Shown here piece after piece: positions 17,274-54,880 of a stretch of DNA of 64,000 nucleotides. The notes below the pieces were generated by a model. That model did not search any database, was not told where the DNA came from, and was given only the letters and a program-made list of their open reading frames with translations. The position numbers were made by a program, and so were the translations under genes. The stretch comes from Isoptericola variabilis 225. GTDB taxonomy: Bacteria > Actinomycetota > Actinomycetes > Actinomycetales > Cellulomonadaceae. Every line of letters starts with the position of its first letter. Positions within the stretch are counted from its first letter, which is position 1. Where the stretch lies: contig NC_015588.1 of NCBI RefSeq assembly GCF_000215105.1, positions 2,046,001 through 2,110,000 of the forward strand, given 5' to 3'.

Positions 17274-17410
17274 GAGGTAGCGCGCGGCGCGACGAGGTAG
17301 CGCGGGGCCCCGGACCGATCGGTCCGGGGCCCCGTTCGTTGCGCTACCTCGTCGCCTCGCGCGCTACCTCGGCGGATGGTGCGCTACCTCGGCGGGTGGT
17401 GCGCTACTTC
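17274..17410. repeat. 20-bp-periodic inverted repeat array, copy A (core GAGGTAGCGC)
   Basis: GAGGTAGCGC occurs at 17274 and 17294, and its reverse complement GCGCTACCTC at 17341, 17361, 17381 and (one change, GCGCTACTTC) 17401. Spacing within each half is exactly 20 bp, while the 10-bp spacers differ. The halves face each other across a 30-bp perfect palindrome. The last inverted unit supplies the TAG stop of the minus-strand gene. The same core and spacing recur at 54661-54880. Confidence 0.9.
17304..17333. terminator. 30-bp perfect palindrome, bidirectional terminator of aceE and the convergent gene
   Basis: GGGGCCCCGGACCGA and its exact reverse complement form a 15-bp stem without a real loop in DNA, about 13 bp in RNA. 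It lies midway between the converging aceE and TPR-like genes and in the centre of repeat array A. Confidence 0.75.
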
Positions 17411-18087
17411 GGGGAGGCCTGCTCGGCGTCGGCGATGGCCCGCTCGAGCTCGGCGCGCACGGGCGCGACGGCGGCCTGGTCAGGGTGCAGCGACAGGGAC
17501 TCGAGGTGCTGGCGCGCCTCGAAGGCGCGGTCGGCCTCGAGCGCGGCGAGCACGAGCTGCCGCCCCACTTCCGGGGTGTGCTCGCGGGCCCGCCAGTGCC
17601 CCACGCCCAGGCCGAGGGCCTCGACCGGCATCCCGGCGTCGCGCAGGATCGTCAGGCCCTCGGCGAGCGCCCGTCCCTCGGGGTCGCGCTCGGCCGCGGT
17701 GGCGAGCCGGCGCACCGCGCCCTCCGGGTCGTCGCCGAGCGAGAGCCGGCCGAGCTCCAGCAGCGGCCGCCACCCGCGCGGGTGCGCGGCGAGCTCCTCG
17801 GCGAGCGACCACACCGCCAGGTCCGCGGCGCGCTGCTTCTCGATCTCGTCGCTCGGCGCCGACAGCGGGTCCTCCGGGTTGGGCGACTCCTGGGCCCGCC
17901 GGCGCACGATCTCCGCGAGGGCGTGGAAGGCGCGCTCGTCGTTCGGGTCGTCGATGAGCATCGCGCGCAGCGCGTCCTCCTGCACCGTGTCGCCCCGGCG
18001 GCGACCCACCGTCGGGCGCCGTGCCCCCACGGTCGAGGCGGAGAACGGTCGACGGATGAGGGCGCGGAGGCGGGGCAGCAGAGCCAT
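17404..18087 (-). CDS. Hypothetical TPR-like helical protein
   Basis: 227 residues from ATG 18087 (MALLPRLRALIRRPF). The N-terminus is basic. The rest is Ala/Leu/Arg-rich and helical, with TPR-like repeats: ERAFHALAEIVRRRA, ADLAVWSLAEELAAHPRGWRPLLELGRLSLGDDPEGAVRRLATAAERDPE, ALAEGLTILRDAG. No catalytic motif or membrane segment is seen. It is convergent with aceE and divergent from fasR, and its TAG stop falls inside a unit of repeat array A. Function is unknown; a protein-interaction role would fit the repeats. Confidence 0.75.
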   Translation of the reverse strand: MALLPRLRALIRRPFSASTVGARRPTVGRRRGDTVQEDALRAMLIDDPNDERAFHALAEIVRRRAQESPNPEDPLSAPSDEIEKQRAADLAVWSLAEELAAHPRGWRPLLELGRLSLGDDPEGAVRRLATAAERDPEGRALAEGLTILRDAGMPVEALGLGVGHWRAREHTPEVGRQLVLAALEADRAFEARQHLESLSLHPDQAAVAPVRAELERAIADAEQASPK

Positions 18088-19447: not shown

Positions 19448-20437
19448 GTGCTCGCCGTCGTCTGCCCTGGACAGGGCTCTCAGACCCCCGGGATGCTCGC
19501 GCCGTGGCTCGAGCTGCCCGGCACCGCCGACCTCCTCGACTCGTTCTCGGCCGCGGCCGGGACCGACCTCGTCACGCACGGGACGACGTCGGACGCCGAC
19601 ACGATCCGTGACACCGCCGTCGCCCAGCCGCTGATCGTCGCCTCCTCGCTCGTGTCGCTGCGCACGATCCTCGACGGGCGCGACGCGAGCGAGGTCGTCG
19701 ACGTCACGGCGGGCCACTCGGTCGGCGAGCTCTCCGCCGCGGCCGTCGCGGGCGTGCTCGACGACGCCGGCGCGGTCGGCCTGGTCTCGCACCGCGCCCG
19801 GGCCATGGCCGAGGCGGCCGCCGCGGCCGAGTCCGGGATGAGCGCCGTGGTCGGCGGCGACCCCGACGAGGTCCTCGCGTCGATCGAGGCCGCCGGCCTC
19901 TTCCCCGCCAACGTCAACGGCGGCGGCCAGGTCGTGGCCGCAGGCGGGCTCGCCGAGCTCAAGGCCCTCGCCGAGCAGCCGCCGGCGCGTGCCCGCGTCA
20001 TCCCGCTCCAGGTCGCCGGCGCGTTCCACACGCCGTACATGGAGTCGGCGCGCGCCGCCTTCGAGCAGGTCGCGCGCGGCTGGCTCGCGACCGACCCGCG
20101 CCTGCCGCTGCTGAGCGACGCCGACGGCGCCACGTACGACACGCTCGCGCCGGGCTCGCACGGCCACGGCACCGCGGCCGACGTGCTGAGCCGGCTCGCC
20201 GCCCAGGTCACGGCGCCCGTGCGGTGGGACCTGTGCCAGGCGACGCTCGCCGAGCGCGGCGTCACCGCGATCCTCGAGCTCGCCCCGGGCGGCGTCCTCG
20301 CCGGCCTCGCCAAGCGTTCCCTCAAGGGCGTCGAGCTCGTCGCCGTCAAGTCCCCCGACGACGTCGAGGCCGCGCGCGACCTCGTCGCCCGCCACTCCGT
20401 CGTCGGCGGCGCCGGCACGGCCGAGGTGACCGCATGA
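19448..20437 (+). CDS. fabD: Malonyl-CoA:ACP transacylase
   Basis: 329 residues from GTG 19448. It transfers malonyl groups from CoA to acyl carrier protein for type II fatty-acid synthesis. Visible marks are GQGSQ (residues 8-12), the nucleophile elbow GHSVGE (about 90) with the catalytic Ser, and the catalytic His in AGAFHTPYM (about 193). It begins the fabD-fabH-acpP-fabF operon 93 bp after fasR and overlaps fabH by 4 bp (ATGA), indicating coupled translation. Confidence 0.96.
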   Translation: MLAVVCPGQGSQTPGMLAPWLELPGTADLLDSFSAAAGTDLVTHGTTSDADTIRDTAVAQPLIVASSLVSLRTILDGRDASEVVDVTAGHSVGELSAAAVAGVLDDAGAVGLVSHRARAMAEAAAAAESGMSAVVGGDPDEVLASIEAAGLFPANVNGGGQVVAAGGLAELKALAEQPPARARVIPLQVAGAFHTPYMESARAAFEQVARGWLATDPRLPLLSDADGATYDTLAPGSHGHGTAADVLSRLAAQVTAPVRWDLCQATLAERGVTAILELAPGGVLAGLAKRSLKGVELVAVKSPDDVEAARDLVARHSVVGGAGTAEVTA

Positions 20438-21444
20438 CCGCGCGGCGCACGCTGCGCCAGGCGGAGCCCGTGCGGTACTCCCGCATCCTGTCGATCGCCG
20501 GCGAACGCGGCAGCGAGGTCGTCACGAACGACGACATCGCGGGCCCGATCGACTCCTCGGACGAGTGGATCCGCCAGCGCACCGGGATCGTGACGCGGCG
20601 CCGCGCGACCGCGGACGTCGACGTGCTCGACCTGTCCGAGGCCGCCGCCCGCAAGGCCCTCGACGCCGCGGGGCTCACCGGCTCCGACGTCGACGCGGTG
20701 ATCCTGTCGACCATCACGTACTTCCACCAGACGCCGTCGGGCGCCGCGATCCTCGCCGAGCGCCTGGGCGCGACGCCGGCCGCCGCGTACGACATCTCGG
20801 CGGCCTGCGCCGGCTACGCCTACGGCATCGGCCAGGCCGACGCGCTCGTGCGCTCGGGCGCCGCCCGGCACGTGCTCGTCATCGGCGCCGAGAAGCTCAG
20901 CGACATCATCGACCCGACGGACCGGTCGATCTCGTTCCTCCTCGGCGACGGCGCGGGCGCCGCCGTCGTCGGCCCCTCCGACACGCCGGGCATCGGCCCG
21001 ACCGTCTGGGGCTCCGACGGCGCCAAGGCGCAGGCGATCCGCCAGACGCACTCGCTGACCGAGCTCGCGCAGGACCCGTCGCTCGGCATGCCCACGCTGC
21101 GCCAGGACGGGCCGTCGGTGTTCAAGTGGGCGAGCTTCCAGATGGCCCCGGTCGCCGCGAAGGCGATGGCCGAGGCAGGCGTCGAGCCCGAGGACATCCA
21201 GGTCTTCGTCCCGCACCAGGCGAACATGCGGATCATCGACCAGATGGTCAAGCAGCTGCGCCTGCCCGAGGACGTCGCCGTGGCCCGCGACATCGCGGAC
21301 ACCGGCAACACGTCGGCCGCGTCGATCCCGCTGGCGACCGAGCGCCTGCTCGCGGAGGGCTCGGCGGCGTCGGGCGACCTCGCGCTGCAGATCGGGTTCG
21401 GCGCCGGGCTCGTCTACGCGGCCCAGGTGGTCGTGCTCCCGTAG
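20434..21444 (+). CDS. fabH: 3-oxoacyl-ACP synthase III (KAS III)
   Basis: 336 residues, starting in the 4-bp ATGA overlap with fabD. It condenses acyl-CoA primers with malonyl-ACP to start each fatty-acid chain; in this lineage branched primers are expected. The catalytic triad is visible: Cys in SAACAGY (about 122), His in VPHQANMR (about 260) and Asn in DTGNTSAAS (about 290). The N-terminus shows SDEWIRQRTGI, the CoA-site Arg/Trp region. Length and spacing are normal. Confidence 0.96.
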   Translation: MTARRTLRQAEPVRYSRILSIAGERGSEVVTNDDIAGPIDSSDEWIRQRTGIVTRRRATADVDVLDLSEAAARKALDAAGLTGSDVDAVILSTITYFHQTPSGAAILAERLGATPAAAYDISAACAGYAYGIGQADALVRSGAARHVLVIGAEKLSDIIDPTDRSISFLLGDGAGAAVVGPSDTPGIGPTVWGSDGAKAQAIRQTHSLTELAQDPSLGMPTLRQDGPSVFKWASFQMAPVAAKAMAEAGVEPEDIQVFVPHQANMRIIDQMVKQLRLPEDVAVARDIADTGNTSAASIPLATERLLAEGSAASGDLALQIGFGAGLVYAAQVVVLP

Positions 21445-21548
21445 CCCGCCACTAACCACCCGACGTCGCGGTGCGGGAGAATCGCACCGCAACACCCACC
21501 GACCCGGTGCCGGACGGCCGGTACCCCGTTCAAGGAGAAACCCACCCC

Positions 21549-21797
21549 ATGGCTTACACGTCCCAGGAGATCCTCGAGGGCCTCGCCGAGATCGTCGCCG
21601 AGGAGACCGGTCTTCCCACCGACGCCGTCGCCCCCGAGAAGTCCTTCACCGACGACCTCGACATCGACTCGCTGTCGATGATGACGATCGTCACGCACGC
21701 CGAGGACAAGTTCGACGTCCGCATCCCCGACGACGACGTCAAGAACCTCACGACCGTCGGCGACGCCGTCAAGTACATCGAGGGCGCCCAGAGCTGA
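21549..21797 (+). CDS. acpP: Acyl carrier protein
   Basis: 82 residues, highly acidic. The phosphopantetheine attachment serine is S41 in DIDSLSM. ATG 21549 is preceded by AAGGAGAAA. It carries growing acyl chains for the type II synthase encoded on both sides. A GACCTGACCTCAGGTCAG inverted repeat just after the stop (about 21796-21813) may form a small hairpin within the operon. Confidence 0.97.
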   Translation: MAYTSQEILEGLAEIVAEETGLPTDAVAPEKSFTDDLDIDSLSMMTIVTHAEDKFDVRIPDDDVKNLTTVGDAVKYIEGAQS

Positions 21798-21887
21798 CCT
21801 GACCTCAGGTCAGCAGCCGCCCCGGGCCGGGGCGGACCGGTGACCCCGGTCCGCCCCGACCGACCCCCACCCGACCAGGAGAGCACC

Positions 21888-23132
21888 ATGACCGCAGCAC
21901 GCGACGTCGTCGTCACCGGCCTCGGCGCGACCACGCCTCTCGGCGGCGACGCGCCGACCACCTGGGCTGCCGCCCTGGCGGGCGAGTCCGGAGCCCGGAC
22001 TCTCGAGAACGACTGGGCGGAGAAGTACGGGATCCCCGTGACCTTCGCGGCGACCATCAAGGTCAAGCCGGAGGAGGTGCTCCCCCGCCCCGAGCTCAAG
22101 CGCATGGACCCGTCCGCGCAGTACGCGATCATCGCGGCGCGCGAGGCGTGGCAGGACGCGGGCGCCCCCGAGGTCGACGGCGAGCGCCTGGGCGCGGTCG
22201 TGTCGTCGGGCATCGGCGGCATCTGGACCACGCTCGACGGCTGGGACCTCCTCAAGGAGCGCGGCGCGCGCCGCATGCTCCCCATGACGGTGCCGATGCT
22301 CATGCCGAACTCGGCCGTCGCGTACGTGTCGCTCGAGCTGGGGGCGCAGGCCGGCGCCCACGCGCTCGTGTCCGCGTGCGCCTCCGGCGCCGAGGCCATC
22401 GGCTACGCGATCGACATGATCCGCACCGGCCGGGCCGACGTCGTCGTCGCGGGCGGCACCGAGGCCACGATCCACCCCATGCCGATCGCGGCGTTCGCGG
22501 CGTCGCGCACCCTGTCGCTGCGCAACGACGACCCGCAGGGCGCCTCGCGCCCGTACGACGTCGACCGCGACGGCTTCGTCATCGGCGAGGGTGCGGCGGT
22601 GCTCGTGCTCGAGAGCGCGGAGCACGCCGCCGCGCGCGGCGCGAGCGTGTACGCGCGCATCGCCGGCGTCGGCCTCTCCGCCGACGCGTACCACATCACG
22701 TCCCCGGACCCGGACGGCAAGGGTCAGGTCGCGGCCATGCGCCGGGCGCTCGAGGACGCGGGCGTGACGGGTGCGGACGTCGTGCACGTCAACGCGCACG
22801 CGACGTCGACCAAGGTCGGCGACCTCACCGAGACCCGGTCCATCCGCGCGCTCCTCGGCGACGACGCGGACCACGTCCAGCTCTCGGCGACCAAGTCGAT
22901 GACGGGGCACCTGCTGGGTGGCGCGGGCGCGCTCGAGACGCTGTTCGCGGTCAAGGCCGTGTCCGAGCGGCTCGCCCCGCCGACGATCAACGTCGACAAC
23001 CCCGACCCGGAGCTGCAGGTGCCGCTCGTGCGGTCGGTGCCGGAGAAGCTGCCCGACGGCGACATCGTCGCCATCAACAACTCGTTCGGCTTCGGCGGCC
23101 ACAACGTCGCGCTGGTGGTCGCGAACGCCTGA
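21888..23132 (+). CDS. fabF: 3-oxoacyl-ACP synthase II (KAS II)
   Basis: 414 residues from ATG 21888, with AGGAGA upstream. It elongates acyl-ACP with malonyl-ACP. Catalytic Cys in VSACASGAEA (about 164), His in NAHATST (about 304) and His in SMTGHLLGG (about 340) are all present, followed by the C-terminal NNSFGFGGHN signature. It is the last gene of the fab operon; a 22-bp palindrome lies 140 bp downstream. Confidence 0.97.
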   Translation: MTAARDVVVTGLGATTPLGGDAPTTWAAALAGESGARTLENDWAEKYGIPVTFAATIKVKPEEVLPRPELKRMDPSAQYAIIAAREAWQDAGAPEVDGERLGAVVSSGIGGIWTTLDGWDLLKERGARRMLPMTVPMLMPNSAVAYVSLELGAQAGAHALVSACASGAEAIGYAIDMIRTGRADVVVAGGTEATIHPMPIAAFAASRTLSLRNDDPQGASRPYDVDRDGFVIGEGAAVLVLESAEHAAARGASVYARIAGVGLSADAYHITSPDPDGKGQVAAMRRALEDAGVTGADVVHVNAHATSTKVGDLTETRSIRALLGDDADHVQLSATKSMTGHLLGGAGALETLFAVKAVSERLAPPTINVDNPDPELQVPLVRSVPEKLPDGDIVAINNSFGFGGHNVALVVANA

Positions 23133-23586: not shown

Positions 23587-26500
23587 GTGAGGACATGGCG
23601 TGGACACGCGCGTCACAGCGCAGCATCACCACCGGAGAGCCTGAAGAAGGCTCCGCGACACCGCCGCCGCTTCGACCGCAGGACGGTCAAGCGCACGATC
23701 GGGATCACCACCGCAGCCGGCGTCGTCGGCGCCGCGGCATTCGCCGGGGCGTCGGTCGCGACCGCCGAACCGACCGACCAGACCGAGGCGCTCGGCAAGT
23801 TCCTCGGCGGCAGCACGCTGTCGGTCAACCTTGACGACATCGCCGCGCTCGAGGGCGCGCACGCGGAGTACCCCTCCGGCGAGACGCTCGACACCAACCC
23901 GCTCGCCGCCGAGGTGCTCAACGCCGTCGCGGTCGATCTCGGAGACTCCCTCCAGCTCTTCGGGCCCAACGGTGTCATCGCGCTCGGGGCGGTCAACCAG
24001 TACGCCGAGGCCGACGCCGAGGGCGCGGCGGCCGCGTCCGGCGCGGTCAGCGACCAGGGCGCGATCTCGGTCGGAGGGTCGGCGGAGTTCCCGTCCGACG
24101 CCACCGTGTCGCTCACGCCGCTCCTGCCGGAGCTCGCCGACGGCGTGGTCTCGCAGCTCGACCTCGAGCTGGGGGCGCTGTCCGCGTCGGCTGCCTGGCC
24201 GGCCGGCGGCGAGCCCACCGGTGACTACGACATCGCCGGCGCCATGCTGCAGTTCGAGAGCCCGCTCGTCGGCGGTGTCTACACGGACCTGCAGGACGCG
24301 ATCGTGCCTGTGCAGGGCACGCTCGACGACCTGACCGCCGATCTGACCGACGCGCTCGACGGCCTCATCAACCTGAACCTCGTGGCCGCGCGGTCCACGG
24401 GGACCGTCGACGTCACGCTCCCCGATCTGACGACGGTCCTGCCGTCCGGATTCGTCGGGGACGGCGCGGTCCAGGTCAACCTGCAGACCGGCGAGGTCCT
24501 CGTCGATCTCGAGCAACTCCTTGCCGAGAACCCGGACCTGCCGGACCTCAACGACCTGCCGGCCAACTACGAGATCCTCAACGGCGACGTCATCGCGGCG
24601 ATCGGCGAGGCGACGACGAACACCATCACCTCGATCGTCGAGGACGTCGCTGCCGGCGTCCGGACCGCCGTCGAGAACACGGCGGTGTCCGTCGACATCA
24701 ACTTCGAGGTCCTGACCCCCGACCTTCCGCCCACGTGGACCACCGTCCTCGGGCTCTCCCTCGACGCGACTCTCGCCGAGATCGACAGCGGTGCGGCGGT
24801 CGTCGACATCACGACGGTCCCCGGAACCGAGGATCTGCTCGACACACTGCTCGAGCTGCTCGGCCTCGAATCCACCGACGAGCTCGAGTCCGAGGTGCTC
24901 AGCCTCCTCCTGGCTCCCATCGGCGACGTCTTCGACGCCGTCGACGGGTTGGACGGCGCGCTCAACAACCTCACGACGGGTCTTGCCACCGAGGTGGTGG
25001 ACCCGGTCCTCGACGTGGTGACGACCGTCGTGTCGCTCACCGGCAACGTCCAGGAGCAGCCTGGCGACCTGCCGGCTCACGACCCGACGGGTACCGAGTC
25101 GTTCACGCAGCGCGCGCTTCAGCTCACGCTGCTGCCGGGCGCCACGCCGCTCGCCCAGGTGAACCTCGCCTCGGCGACCGTGCGAGCCGTGGAAGCGGAG
25201 CTCGACCTCGCCGTGACGGTCACGCCGGACGTCGCGGCGCCGGGTGACACGGTGACGGTCGACGGCACCGGCTACACGCCGAGCTCGACGGTCACCGTCG
25301 AGATCCGCGACGGCGAGGGCACGGTCATCGCGACCGTCGAGGACGTCCCGACGGACGCGGAGGGTACCTTCACCACGCCCGTCACCATCCCCGGTGACAC
25401 CGAGCCCGGTGCGTACGTCGCGGTCGGCATCGACGACACGACAGGCCAGGAAGCCGAGGACGCGCTGACCATCGAGGTGGACGGCACCGAGGTGGACGGG
25501 ACCGAGGTCGACGGGACCGAGGTCGACGGCACCGAGGTCGACGGCACCGAGGTCGACGGCACCGAGGTCGACGGCACCGAGGTCGACGGCACCGAGGTCG
25601 ACGGCACCGAGGTCGACGGCACCGAGGTCGACGGCACCGAGGTCGACGGCACCGAGGTCGACGGCACCGAGGTCGACGGCACCGAGGTCGACGGCACCGA
25701 GGTCGACGGCACCGAGGTCGACGGCACCGAGGTCGACGGCACCGAGGTCGACGGCACCGAGGTCGACGGCACCGAGGTCGACGGCACCGAGGTCGACGGC
25801 ACCGAGGTCGACGGCACCGAGGTCGACGGCACCGAGGTCGACGGCACCGAGGTCGACGGCACCGAGGTCGACGGCACCGAGGTCGACGGCACCGAGGTCG
25901 ACGGCACCGAGGTCGACGGCACCGAGGTCGACGGCACCGAGGTCGACGGCACCGAGGTCGACGGCACCGAGGTCGACGGCACCGAGGTCGACGGCACCGA
26001 GGTCGACGGCACCGAGGTCGACGGCACCGAGCCTGACGACCCGACGATCACGGTCGAGCCCGACACCGTGTTCCCCGGTGACCAGGTGACGGTGACCGGT
26101 GAGGACTGGCCCGCCAGCTCCACGGTCACGGTCGACCTCGTCGACCCGGACGGGAACGTCGTGGCCACGGTCGAGGTCGAGACCGACGAGAACGGCAGCT
26201 TCACCACGCCGATCACGGTCCCCGAGGACGCCGTCCCCGGTGACTACACCGTCGAGGCGTGGGACGACGCCGGCAACTTCGCCGACGACGACCTCACGGT
26301 CCTGCCGGAGGACCGCGTCCTCAGCTCCGTGTTCGAGAAGCCGCGCGTCCAGCGCGGTGAGGAGCAGACGTTCGTCGCGTGGGGCTTCGAGCCCGGCGAG
26401 CAGGTCCAGGCCCGGATCAACTCCGAGCCGCTCACGCTCCCGGTCCGCACGGCCGACGCAGAGGGTCGGGTCAGCTGGACCTTCGTGGTCCCGGCCGACT

Positions 26501-26772
26501 TCGAGGTCGGTCCGCACACCGGCACGGCGACGAGCGTCGAGGTAGGCGACTCGACGACGGCGGCGTTCGCCGTCTACGCCGAGACGTCGTCGGGTGGCGG
26601 CACCGGCGGTACCGGTGGTGCCGGCGGCACGGGTAAGACCGGCGGTGGCGGCATGCTGCCGAAGACGGGCGCCGACTCGGCGGCCTACCTCGGCCTGGCC
26701 CTGCTCCTGATCGGGACGGGCACCGCGGCGGTGATCGGCGCGAAGCGCCGGACCCGCTCCGCGAAGGGCTGA
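23587..26772 (+). CDS. LPXTG-anchored choice-of-anchor-G-type surface protein with 36 TEVDG repeats
   Basis: 1061 residues from GTG 23587. The arginine-rich N-terminus and a signal segment ([20 protein letters not shown], cleavage near ATA-EP) precede a large globular region (about 55-545) typical of actinobacterial choice-of-anchor G proteins. Then come an Ig-like/PKD-like domain ([20 protein letters not shown]), an acidic linker of 36 TEVDG pentapeptides (about 630-813), a second Ig-like domain ([18 protein letters not shown]), a third module, a Gly/Thr linker and a sortase signal LPKTG (about 1024) with membrane helix and KRRTRSAKG tail. It should be covalently attached to peptidoglycan. 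The linker may serve as a stalk, metal-binding surface or modification target. DUF5819 and HTTM genes follow. Confidence 0.85.
25474..26025 (+). repeat. 15-bp tandem repeat (ACCGAGGTCGACGGC) x 36 plus a partial unit
   Basis: Starting with GAGGTGGACGGC at 25474, 36 full 15-bp units run from 25486 to 26025. All units from the fourth onward (25531 on) are identical, and the first few differ only at synonymous third positions (GTG/GTC, GGG/GGC). The unit keeps frame (TEVDG), so copy number can change without a frameshift. Near-identity at DNA level indicates recent expansion or ongoing homogenisation. Confidence 0.97.
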
Positions 26773-26799
26773 TCCGCCAGTACCCGGTAGTACGGTCGG

Positions 26800-26828
26800 C
26801 CCGGCGTGACCTTCCAGGCCACGCCGGG
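26800..26828 (+). terminator. hairpin after the LPXTG gene
   Basis: Arms CCCGGCGTG (26800-26808) and CACGCCGGG (26820-26828) with an 11-nt loop lie in the 92-bp gap before the DUF5819 gene. It may terminate or attenuate, so the downstream pair could have its own promoter or be expressed at a lower level. Confidence 0.55.
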
Positions 26829-26864
26829 TCGGCCGCTACAGGGCCACGTCACAGGAGATCACCA

Positions 26865-27602
26865 GTGCCTTCCACGACCACCTCGCGAGCCACCTGGGTC
26901 AAGCTGGTGGCAGCCGCGCTCGCGCTCGTCGTCACGGTGCACACGGCCGCGACGTTCCTGTGGATCGCACCGAGGAACGCGATCAGCACCGCGGCGGCGG
27001 AGCCGCTCGAGGCGTACATGGAACCGGTGTTCCAGCAGAACTGGTCACTCTTCGCCCCGACGCCGATCAACGTGGAGAACTCGCTCGAGGTCCGCGCCCT
27101 GGACGAGGACCTCAACCCGACGGCGTGGGTCGACGTGACGGACCTCGAGATCTCCGCCAACCTCACGCACCACGTGTTCCCCAACCGTGCGAGCCGGCCG
27201 ACGCGCATGCTCGCAGCCCGCGCCGGCGCGCAGTTCCGCAAGCTCTCCGACGCCGAGCTGCAGGTCCTCGGCGGTCACTATCACGAGAACGCCTGGCCCC
27301 GGCTCGCGGAAGCGCTCGAGGAGGCGGACGGCAGCTCGTCCGAGGCACGCCGGGACCTCGTTCTCGCCTACGACCGTGCCATGGCCGCGTACGCGACGGA
27401 GTTCGTCCGCGCGACGGTCACCGAGATCGAGCCCGCCTACGTCCAGTTCCGGGTCGTCCGTCAGCCCGCCGCACGGTTCTCGGCCCGTGACGGCGAACCG
27501 CCTGCGGCGACGACCTACACGTTCGGCAGGCGCCCGCTGTACGAGTTCCCGCGCCAGGACAGCGACGCGTTCCGGGCGGCGATCGAGAGGTTCCGGCCAT
27601 GA
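26865..27602 (+). CDS. DUF5819 family protein (membrane-anchored, extracytoplasmic)
   Basis: 245 residues from GTG 26865 with AGGAGA upstream. A single N-terminal membrane helix (about 12-32, LVAAALALVVTVHTAATFLW) is followed by NWSLFAPTPINVENSLEVRA, a hallmark of DUF5819, then a soluble domain probably outside the membrane. It overlaps the HTTM gene by 4 bp (ATGA). DUF5819 and HTTM genes are regularly paired in actinobacteria, suggesting one membrane complex. The biochemical role is unknown; an accessory or periplasmic partner of the HTTM enzyme is the simplest reading. Confidence 0.85.
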   Translation: MPSTTTSRATWVKLVAAALALVVTVHTAATFLWIAPRNAISTAAAEPLEAYMEPVFQQNWSLFAPTPINVENSLEVRALDEDLNPTAWVDVTDLEISANLTHHVFPNRASRPTRMLAARAGAQFRKLSDAELQVLGGHYHENAWPRLAEALEEADGSSSEARRDLVLAYDRAMAAYATEFVRATVTEIEPAYVQFRVVRQPAARFSARDGEPPAATTYTFGRRPLYEFPRQDSDAFRAAIERFRP

Positions 27603-28690
27603 CGACGACGATCGCCTCCGCACACCGGCAGGCGTCCGACCGGCTCGACGCCGCGCTGCGCTGGGTGTGCGACGACCGCAGGGCGACCTACGGCACGGCG
27701 CTGGTCCGCATGGCGTTCGGCGGCGGCGCCTTCGTCTTCCTGCTCACCCACCTGCAGAACCGCGAGTACCTGTGGGGCGAGGCGGCGCGCTGGGCCGCAC
27801 CGCTCGACTCCAACGGCGGTTTCGGCGCTCCGTTCACGCTCTTCGCGGGCGGGCTCGCGTCCGTTCCGCTCACGGTCGCCTACGTCGTGCTCCTCGTGCT
27901 CGCGGCGCTCGTGACGGTCGGCTGGCGGGCACGCTGGGTGACCCCCGTCTTCCTCGTGATGTGGGTCAGCCTGCTCGAGTCGAACCCCCTGACGGGCGAC
28001 CAGAGCGACAACATCTTCCGCATCCTGCTGCTCTACCTGTGCTTCGCCGACCTCGGCGGCCGCTGGTCGCTCGACGCCCGCCGCCGCGCCCGCGAGCTGG
28101 CGCGGTACGGGGTCCCCCGGCCGCTCGGCCGGTTCGGGTCCGCCCGGGCCAACGCGGCCGCCGTCCAGCTCGGCACGTTGCTGCACAACTTCGCCGTGAT
28201 CATGGCCGCGGCGCAGATCTGCCTCATCTACGTGGCGTCCGGGCTCTACAAGGCCCAGGGCGCGCGGTGGCAGGACGGCACGGCGATCTACTACCCGCTG
28301 CAGCTCTCCCACTACCGGCCCTGGCCGTGGCTCGCCGACCTGCTCGTCCAGAACCCGCTGATGGTCACCCTCGTGACCTACTTCTCGGTGTTCATCCAGC
28401 TGTTCTTCCCGCTCATGCTGCTGCAGCGCTGGACGCGCATCGTCGCGATCGCCGGTGTGCTGGCGATGCACACGGGCATCGCCGTCGCGATGGGCCTGCC
28501 GTTCTTCTCGCTGTTCATCATGGCCGGCGACTGCCTCTTCGTCCGGGACCGGACCTTCGCCGCGGTCGAGCGCCGGGTACGGACGTGGCTCGGCCGCGTC
28601 GTCCGTCACCTCCCCGGTCCGCGGGGGCACGACGGCGGCACTCGCGACGGTACGCCCGCTCGCGAACCCGAGCAGGTGCCGGTGCCCTGA
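27599..28690 (+). CDS. HTTM domain membrane protein (vitamin-K-dependent carboxylase-like)
   Basis: 363 residues, multi-spanning. The HTTM core shared with vitamin-K-dependent gamma-glutamyl carboxylase is recognisable: SNPLTGDQSDNIFRILLLYL, SGLYKAQGARWQDGTAIYYPL, then VLAMHTGIAVAMGLPFFSLFIM. Aligning SGLYKAQGARW with the human carboxylase AGVKKLDADW motif puts K218 here on the human catalytic-base lysine, which also happens to be numbered 218; this comparison is from memory. The C-terminal tail is short, so the lumenal propeptide-binding domain of the animal enzyme is absent; DUF5819 could replace it. The reaction is not known. A Glu-repeat surface protein precedes this operon. Confidence 0.85.
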   Translation: MTTTIASAHRQASDRLDAALRWVCDDRRATYGTALVRMAFGGGAFVFLLTHLQNREYLWGEAARWAAPLDSNGGFGAPFTLFAGGLASVPLTVAYVVLLVLAALVTVGWRARWVTPVFLVMWVSLLESNPLTGDQSDNIFRILLLYLCFADLGGRWSLDARRRARELARYGVPRPLGRFGSARANAAAVQLGTLLHNFAVIMAAAQICLIYVASGLYKAQGARWQDGTAIYYPLQLSHYRPWPWLADLLVQNPLMVTLVTYFSVFIQLFFPLMLLQRWTRIVAIAGVLAMHTGIAVAMGLPFFSLFIMAGDCLFVRDRTFAAVERRVRTWLGRVVRHLPGPRGHDGGTRDGTPAREPEQVPVP

Positions 28691-28773: not shown

Positions 28774-29274
28774 CTACCCGACGCGGTGCAGCCAGCGCAC
28801 GGGCGCGCCGGCACCCGCGTAGCGGAAGGGCTCGAGCTCGTCGTCCCAGGCGGTGCCGAGCGCGAGGTCGAGGGCGTCACGCATGGCGCGCGGGTCGTGG
28901 GCGAGGTCGAGGGCCGCACGGATGCGGTCCTCGGGCACGACGACGTTGCCGTGGACGTCCGTCATGGCGTGGAAGATGCCGAGGTCGGGGGTGTGCGACC
29001 ACCGCGCGCCGTCGGCGCCGTGGCTCGCCTCCTCCGTCACCTCGTAGCGCAGGTGGTCCCACCCGCGCAGGGCAGACGCCAGCCGGGCGCCCGTGCCCTG
29101 GGCGCCCTGCCACGAGTACTCCGCGCGGTAGAGGCCGCGGCCGGCCGGCTGGGGCGTCCAGTCGAACGACACGCGAGTACCGAGCACGTTGCCCGCCGCC
29201 CACTCGAGGTGGGGGCACAGTGCCCGGGGTGCAGAGTGCACGAAAAGCACACCGCGGGTGATGGCTCCGGCCAT
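28774..29274 (-). CDS. DUF3145 family protein
   Basis: 166 residues (MAGAITRGVLFVHSAPRALC). The SFDWTPQPA, RAEYSWQGAQGTGARLASALRGW and RYEVTEE blocks are typical of this actinobacteria-specific family, usually found near the fab genes. Function is unknown. It stands alone, converging on the HTTM operon. No membrane segment or known catalytic motif is seen. Confidence 0.88.
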   Translation of the reverse strand: MAGAITRGVLFVHSAPRALCPHLEWAAGNVLGTRVSFDWTPQPAGRGLYRAEYSWQGAQGTGARLASALRGWDHLRYEVTEEASHGADGARWSHTPDLGIFHAMTDVHGNVVVPEDRIRAALDLAHDPRAMRDALDLALGTAWDDELEPFRYAGAGAPVRWLHRVG

Positions 29275-29444: not shown

Positions 29445-29939
29445 TCAGAGCCTCTCGCGCAGCTCGCGCATGGCCTTCTTGCGCACGCTGCGCTCCAGGC
29501 GGTCGAGGTAGAGCTTGCCGTCGAGGTGGTCGCACTCGTGCTGCAGGCAGCGCGCCATGAGCCCCGTGCCCTCGACGACGATCTCCTCACCCTCGAGGTT
29601 GGTGCCCACCACGCGGGCGTACCAGGCGCGCGTCGTCGGGTACCAGAGGCCCGGGACCGACAGGCAGCCCTCGTCGCCGTCCTGGAGCTCCTCGGAGAGC
29701 TCGACGATCCGCGGGTTCAGCACGTAGCCGATCTCGTCGTCGACGTTCCACGAGAAGGCCCGGAGGTTCACGCCGATCTGGTTCGCGGCGAGGCCGGCGC
29801 GACCGTCGGCGTCGACCGTGTCGACCAGGTCCTCGACCAGCCCGCGCACGCGGTCGTCGATCGTGGTGATCTCCTCGCACGGGGTACGCAGCACGGGGTC
29901 GGGCAGCACCCGGATCTCTCGCATCGCCATGGTCCGCAT
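29445..29939 (-). CDS. def: Peptide deformylase
   Basis: 164 residues; ATG 29939 is used, but [15 protein letters not shown] starting 9 bases later is equally possible. It removes formyl groups from nascent N-terminal methionine. All three metal-site motifs are present: GLAANQIGV (about 50), EGCLSVPG (about 90, Cys ligand) and QHECDHLDG (about 133, two His ligands and catalytic Glu). Length is typical for a type I/III bacterial enzyme. Confidence 0.95.
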
Positions 29940-54649: not shown

Positions 54650-54660
54650 CCCACCCCTCC

Positions 54661-54880
54661 GCGAGGTAGCGCGTTCTCCCGCGAGGTAGCGCGTCCCACC
54701 GCGAGGTAGCGCGTTCTTCCGCGAGGTAGCGCGTTCTTCCGCGAGGTAGCGCGTTCTTCCGCGAGGTAGCGCGAAGTGCCCGACGCCGGTACCGGCGGGC
54801 GTGCGCTACCTCGACGGAGAACGCGCTACCTCGGCAGAGAACGCGCTACCTCGGCGGAGAACGCGCTACCTCGGCGTCAT
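54661..54880. repeat. 20-bp-periodic inverted repeat array, copy B (core GAGGTAGCGC)
   Basis: Six direct units of GCGAGGTAGCGCGTTCTTCC run without gaps from 54661 to 54780 (cores at 54663, 54683, 54703, 54723, 54743, 54763). A small palindrome CGCCGGTACCGGCG lies at about 54784-54797. Four inverted units follow (GCGCTACCTC at 54803, 54823, 54843, 54863). All ten cores are perfect and every step is exactly 20 bp. The array starts 11 bp after the alpha-glucosidase stop and ends 90 bp before the nucleotidase. Confidence 0.95.

Follow-up and report, generated by a model that had tools for sequence, protein, structure and literature searches.

Two described systems come closest to the genes treated here. 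SdpA and SdpB are required for toxin maturation as reported in PMC13343845, and in GGCX, the vitamin K-dependent gamma-glutamyl carboxylase, His160 coordinates the substrate glutamate and Asn159 also lies in the Glu-binding pocket, according to PMC12589487. We have analysed a stretch of 64,000 nucleotides (the window; NC_015588.1, positions 2,046,001 to 2,110,000) from the ∼3.3 Mb genome of Isoptericola variabilis 225, in which a gene for a wall-anchored protein of the choice-of-anchor G family is followed by genes for a DUF5819 protein and for an HTTM membrane protein of the GGCX/SdpB superfamily (the genomes labelled G154, G172 and G218 belong to the same genus). We consider it rather probable that the three genes form a wall-protein production unit resembling the sdp operon, in which an exported precursor is encoded with a dedicated membrane maturation pair, and this pair probably finishes or modifies the wall protein encoded upstream. 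Among the matches listed in the open-licence literature, titles and the beginnings of abstracts gave no link of DUF5819 or choice-of-anchor G with HTTM.

The first-pass annotation had tied the wall protein to DUF5819-HTTM by adjacency, and a survey of flanking genes showed that this pairing is conserved far beyond this genome. HTTM relatives were collected at 22 named loci. When these loci and another 60 stretches were scanned with tblastn and iterated profiles, the order wall protein-DUF5819-HTTM on one strand was found in Isoptericola, Oerskovia, Jiangella, Haloactinopolyspora, Phytoactinopolyspora and several further families (on the Cellulosimicrobium contig the wall protein is represented by its C-terminal part only). 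In an even sample of the order (198 genomes), DUF5819 scored above cut-off in 29 genomes, choice-of-anchor G in 39 and both in 28 (Fisher p 5e-24; a hand count of genera gave 9/10 vs 5/62, p 2e-7), p-values that are overstated because the genomes are related. When identical sequences and fragments <120 amino acids (aa) were dropped, 88 distinct DUF5819 genes remained. For 48 of them the gene immediately upstream encodes an LPXTG protein, and in 36 of these cases the choice-of-anchor G domain was found. The rest are 12 second members of tandems, nine Streptomyces-like genes, eight from one genus (f53), five f88 pairs and six others; of these last, L006 and L016 lie where their contigs end, L015 borders a run of N, and L022, L125 and L145 have no upstream LPXTG protein. 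The f88 loci (L256-L260) have an arrangement of their own, with two DUF5819-HTTM pairs flanking one LPXTG or LPXTG-like protein, and in L260 another pair follows a different LPXTG protein.

The DUF5819-HTTM pair resembles SdpA-SdpB. The HTTM and SdpB profiles align with hhalign at 99.2% (E 1.4e-19, 255 columns), and Lys, His, Trp, Gln and Tyr residues are invariant both in the HTTM proteins of the pairs and in SdpB; the window HTTM itself matches the SdpB model TIGR04033 with E 2.1e-15 and 57.1 bits, below its cut-off of 178.4. DUF5819 and SdpA (PF17418) align at 48% with a score of 35.7, clearly higher than the best of 40 column shuffles (18.2) and than a reversed control (12.3); the helix, the motif and the part behind it are in register. 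The DUF5819 profile also matched 1/8 SdpA proteins (E 4.2e-6, the search space being SdpA's own small locus), and no SdpA match was found among 40 DUF5819 sequences in NCBIfam. From these profile comparisons, a relationship between DUF5819 and SdpA appears likely but not proven. The DUF5819 protein (PF19136, 105.8 bits vs a cut-off of 27.1) has, in its predicted model (pLDDT, the predicted local distance difference test, of 85.4), one N-terminal membrane helix, then the QNWSLFAP motif and then a mixed domain; the motif is modelled with low confidence (blocks of pLDDT 47 and 64) and a search for a PDB match to the protein found none. Its FQQNWSLFAPTP segment has 7/12 positions invariant among 40 sequences, and the QNWSLF part resembles QxWxFF in SdpA.

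The sdpABC arrangement is matched in an exported precursor with, directly downstream, an HTTM protein and a partner with one N-terminal helix. It differs in that the sdp precursor is an SdpC-type peptide toxin whereas here it is a sortase-anchored choice-of-anchor G protein with LPXTG, and in that eight sdp clusters show little or no gap by the ends of their open reading frames (ORFs) whereas here a hairpin-bearing gap precedes the pair. Those clusters (L150-L157), from the same bacterial order, run precursor, A, B; PF17418 is present in 8/8 and SdpB is above cut-off in 5/8, and their exported precursor was judged SdpC-like by eye. Since SdpB is the best family match of HTTM, the gene order is that of sdp and both Sdp proteins are reported as necessary in toxin maturation (PMC13343845), the pair could be an SdpAB-like processing or folding factor that aids export, cleavage or membrane release before sortase, free of covalent quinone chemistry. 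We regard this as rather unlikely, because the catalytic lysine shared with GGCX and several pocket residues are invariant and a pure chaperone would not need them.

The gap between the wall-protein and DUF5819 genes measures 92 bp, and the DUF5819 and HTTM genes overlap at their ends (27602 / 27599). The hairpin that had been placed at 26800-26828 is real, its extent being longer than originally given (Table 1), and it is best read as a terminator or attenuator of the wall-protein gene. Stems of at least 14 pairs also occur in 44/87 regions 3' of HTTM. The hairpin ends 21 nt before the DUF5819 GTG codon, in a spacing that contains AGGAG at 26853-26857; therefore read-through past the hairpin would be the simplest way to express DUF5819-HTTM, as far as the sequence suggests.

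Several observations weigh against a production unit of this kind. At class level (296 genomes), choice-of-anchor G was found in 24/55 DUF5819 genomes and was missing in 27/27 large DUF5819 genomes of f5 (labelled Streptomyces-like here on the basis of genome size), besides 3/4 in f88 and 1/20 in f81. In 0/9 Streptomyces-like DUF5819-HTTM loci (L147-L149, L282-L287) was an LPXTG protein found directly upstream, nor does one lie there in eight loci of f53, where the wall protein is encoded elsewhere in the genome (a clpB-like gene stands near by in the five of these eight regions that were readable). The pair and the wall protein of G232, the latter lacking LPXTG, are far apart, G316 has a pair and no wall protein, and in 3/4 f88 genomes the adjacent protein is an LPXTG or LPXTG-like one of the same cluster with no recognisable choice-of-anchor G domain. 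When 64 choice-of-anchor G domains of pair loci were compared with 16 from pair-less genomes, one position differed clearly (Leu205 with the pair, Val/Ile with none), and none that was acidic or catalytic-looking. As for the Sdp likeness, masking the motif lowers the DUF5819-SdpA score to 19.1, so that the similarity rests largely on one motif, and DUF5819 matches were found in 0/8 SdpA members in Pfam. Finally, a stem of at least 14 pairs is present in 38/38 wall protein-DUF5819 gaps (median 22) and also in 21/26 regions 3' of wall-protein genes with no adjacent pair. This last result, together with the separate location of the pair in one genus and the Streptomyces-like genomes devoid of the wall protein, would fit genes that are adjacent by clade history and independent in function, the hairpin being a plain terminator. 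Such a history seems unlikely to us, given that order and strand are constant across several families and that the genome-level co-occurrence holds even where the genes lie apart.

The comparison with GGCX bears on the chemistry that the pair might perform. It had been proposed that HTTM-DUF5819 is a bacterial gamma-glutamyl carboxylase converting the Glu of the TEVDG repeats to gamma-carboxyglutamate (Gla) in a calcium-binding stalk. The superfamily assignment behind this proposal stood, as homology extends over the membrane domain with an HTTM-type fold (HTTM model residues 12-332 align to GGCX 41-329, and about 30 residues remain); so did its residues, since Lys218 was found in HTTM where claimed and aligns with GGCX Lys218 residue for residue, and the later His segment contains His291, which pairs with GGCX His287. 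HTTM relatives also retain Trp223 and Phe299 of the GGCX quinone pocket. In the window HTTM, GGCX Lys217 is replaced by Tyr and Asn290 by Ile. The lysine is present in 90/90 HTTM relatives and is kept also in SdpB (8/8), and it therefore marks the superfamily, not carboxylation. A counterpart of the Glu-coordinating His160 (HTTM position 136) was sought in the 90 relatives and found in none (Ser in 38, Gly in 38, Thr in 12, Ala in 2), and Asp and Gln predominate in the places of Asn158 and Asn159 (Gln at position 135 in 73/90). Moreover, GGCX carries a luminal propeptide- and substrate-binding part in the same chain, and the 363-aa HTTM covers the membrane domain alone, next to a DUF5819 protein for which no PDB match was found.

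The same genome encodes a second HTTM protein (G000:C1:99368-99985, minus strand, locus L318, E 8.1e-18) in which the lysine is kept and SSH stands, by eye, at the position of GGCX Asn158-Asn159-His160; judged from its sequence, L318 rather than the HTTM of the pair may be this genome's nearer analogue of the carboxylase. It also encodes a VKOR homologue (G000:C1:2165446-2165841, minus strand, locus L321, E 9.5e-35), which might act as a partner in the recycling of oxidised menaquinone and whose presence is consistent with Gla formation.

The wall protein has an NF033766 score of 240.7 bits (cut-off 45) with a full-length match to the domain; it further contains an MG2 match (PF01835, E 2.9e-12). 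The LPXTG model, with its cut-off at 15.9 bits, gave 14.7 bits on the protein and 21.4 bits, above cut-off, in the genome search. The claimed run of TEVDG units was found exactly as described. In its DNA a 15-bp unit is present in 37.3 copies (99% match, with a score of 1090 that lies well beyond chance), and the copies are nearly identical, as slippage is expected to produce. The idea of a conserved Glu substrate did not hold up: the stalk units in pair-bearing genomes are TEVDG, VEVDG, DADA, VNTADNT, TGTDP and DANAS, and Glu makes up 0-34% of the low-complexity segment of their wall proteins (0-3% in several of them). In favour of the idea, the stalks are Glu/Asp arrays both here and in Jiangella. 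The Glu array was rejected as a conserved target on this variable Glu content and on the acidic stalks of control LPXTG proteins. Taken with the missing His160, the lone membrane domain and a repeat that slippage would explain, these data make Gla formation on the stalk very improbable, even with Lys218, His287 and the quinone-pocket residues in place.

Aspartate is the other candidate. In genomes with the pair, most choice-of-anchor G proteins have a long low-complexity stalk ahead of LPXTG, and in pair-less genomes most do not; the segments are longer where the pair is present (39 vs 13 genomes, p 2e-4, although the genomes are not independent). In the low-complexity segment that follows the domain, Asp accounts for 11-45% of residues in most wall proteins from pair-bearing genomes vs 0-10% in 13 genomes with no pair, and the pair is absent from three genomes of f75, whose wall proteins (LPXTG in 4/5) lack an Asp stalk. 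For this comparison G203 was classed as pair-less since its PF19136 match is below cut-off, and the comparison excludes some duplicate loci and G330, whose wall protein is cut off where the contig stops. Low Asp despite a pair was seen in G232 (5%), in one protein of G487 (4%) and one of G441 (8%), and in a G305 frame of 216 aa (0%) that is possibly not a gene; G341, with 657 low-complexity residues, 10% Asp and no pair, is an outlier of the opposite kind. The pair might accordingly modify stalk Asp, alone or along with Glu, in a menaquinol-driven reaction (e.g. beta-carboxylation or hydroxylation), yet we regard this as quite unlikely, as Asp is just as dense in control LPXTG proteins from nine genomes that have the pair. 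The highest Asp fraction in any 60 residues had a median of 0.20 and a range of 0.05-0.37 in these controls (n=30 of 95 LPXTG matches, those with loci given, with L311, itself a linked wall protein, kept in). Within this genome, five other LPXTG proteins, recognised in 11 stretches out of 20 LPXTG matches at E<=10, have 0.12-0.18 vs 0.22 in the window wall protein. The Asp-rich stalk, at first a strong candidate for a specific mark of linked wall proteins, was weakened by the 30 controls from pair-bearing genomes. As acidic stalks are common among the wall proteins of these genomes, the evidence favours the wall protein as the partner, and not a particular residue.

For the production unit that we favour, we propose that the SdpB- and GGCX-like HTTM protein would be the membrane enzyme; it retains the GGCX base lysine and several quinone-pocket residues and therefore probably uses reduced menaquinone. 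DUF5819 probably docks onto HTTM through its QNWSLFAP motif and would present the substrate, presumably the sortase-anchored protein encoded upstream, which would be handled on the outer side of the membrane, either while Sec exports it or afterwards. The hairpin probably keeps the wall protein in excess over the pair.

Table 1. Features of the three-gene locus (window coordinates)
Feature	Position	Strand	Remarks
Choice-of-anchor G family wall-anchored protein, 1071 aa	23557..26772	+	start codon not settled (first-pass annotation: 23587)
Choice-of-anchor G domain, aa 74-340	23776..24576	+	NF033766, E 3e-71
TEVDG units, 36 consecutive, aa 644-823	25486..26025	+	exact copies
LPKTG sorting signal, then hydrophobic stretch and basic tail	26656..26751	+	TIGR01167
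Hairpin between wall protein and DUF5819	26783..26843 (about)	+	stem of 26 pairs, z -4.4; terminator- or attenuator-like, no U tract
DUF5819 protein, 245 aa; SdpA-like; N-terminal membrane helix and domain taken to be exported	26865..27602	+	PF19136, E 4.8e-30
FQQNWSLFAPTP motif, DUF5819 aa 56-67	27030..27065	+	resembles SdpA PQGWxFFTKxP
HTTM membrane protein, 363 aa, GGCX/SdpB superfamily	27599..28690	+	PF05090, E 4.5e-10
Lys218 codon of HTTM, aligned with GGCX Lys218	28250..28252	+	residue alignment
His291 codon of HTTM, aligned with GGCX His287	28469..28471	+	residue alignment

Directly upstream of the locus lie fatty-acid synthesis genes (window 19448-23132) that are acyltransferase-, ketoacyl-synthase- and carrier-protein-like, names that come from reading the ORFs except for the ketoacyl synthase (21840-23132), which has a family match. 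Downstream, on the opposite strand, are a DUF3145 protein (28774-29274) and a peptide deformylase (29445-29939). Period-20 tandem arrays with a common GCGCTACCTCG core occur at window positions 17341-17412, 54658-54773 and 54803-54876, on both strands and 37 kb apart.

The unit described here joins three poorly described families (choice-of-anchor G, DUF5819 and HTTM) and offers, for a bacterial protein of the GGCX fold, a likely substrate encoded alongside. A wider and doubtful extension is that SdpAB-type pairs constitute a split bacterial branch of the vitamin K carboxylase superfamily, driven by menaquinol and modifying Asp/Glu of exported proteins, here the sortase-anchored ones. If that were true, Gla-like residues would occur in wall proteins, and SdpA/SdpB, whose chemistry is unexplained, would carry out the same reaction. 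Wall-anchored proteins should suit mass spectrometry better than a membrane-active toxin; a mass shift that requires Lys218 would go far towards explaining the superfamily, and its absence would mean that the conserved lysine has another role.

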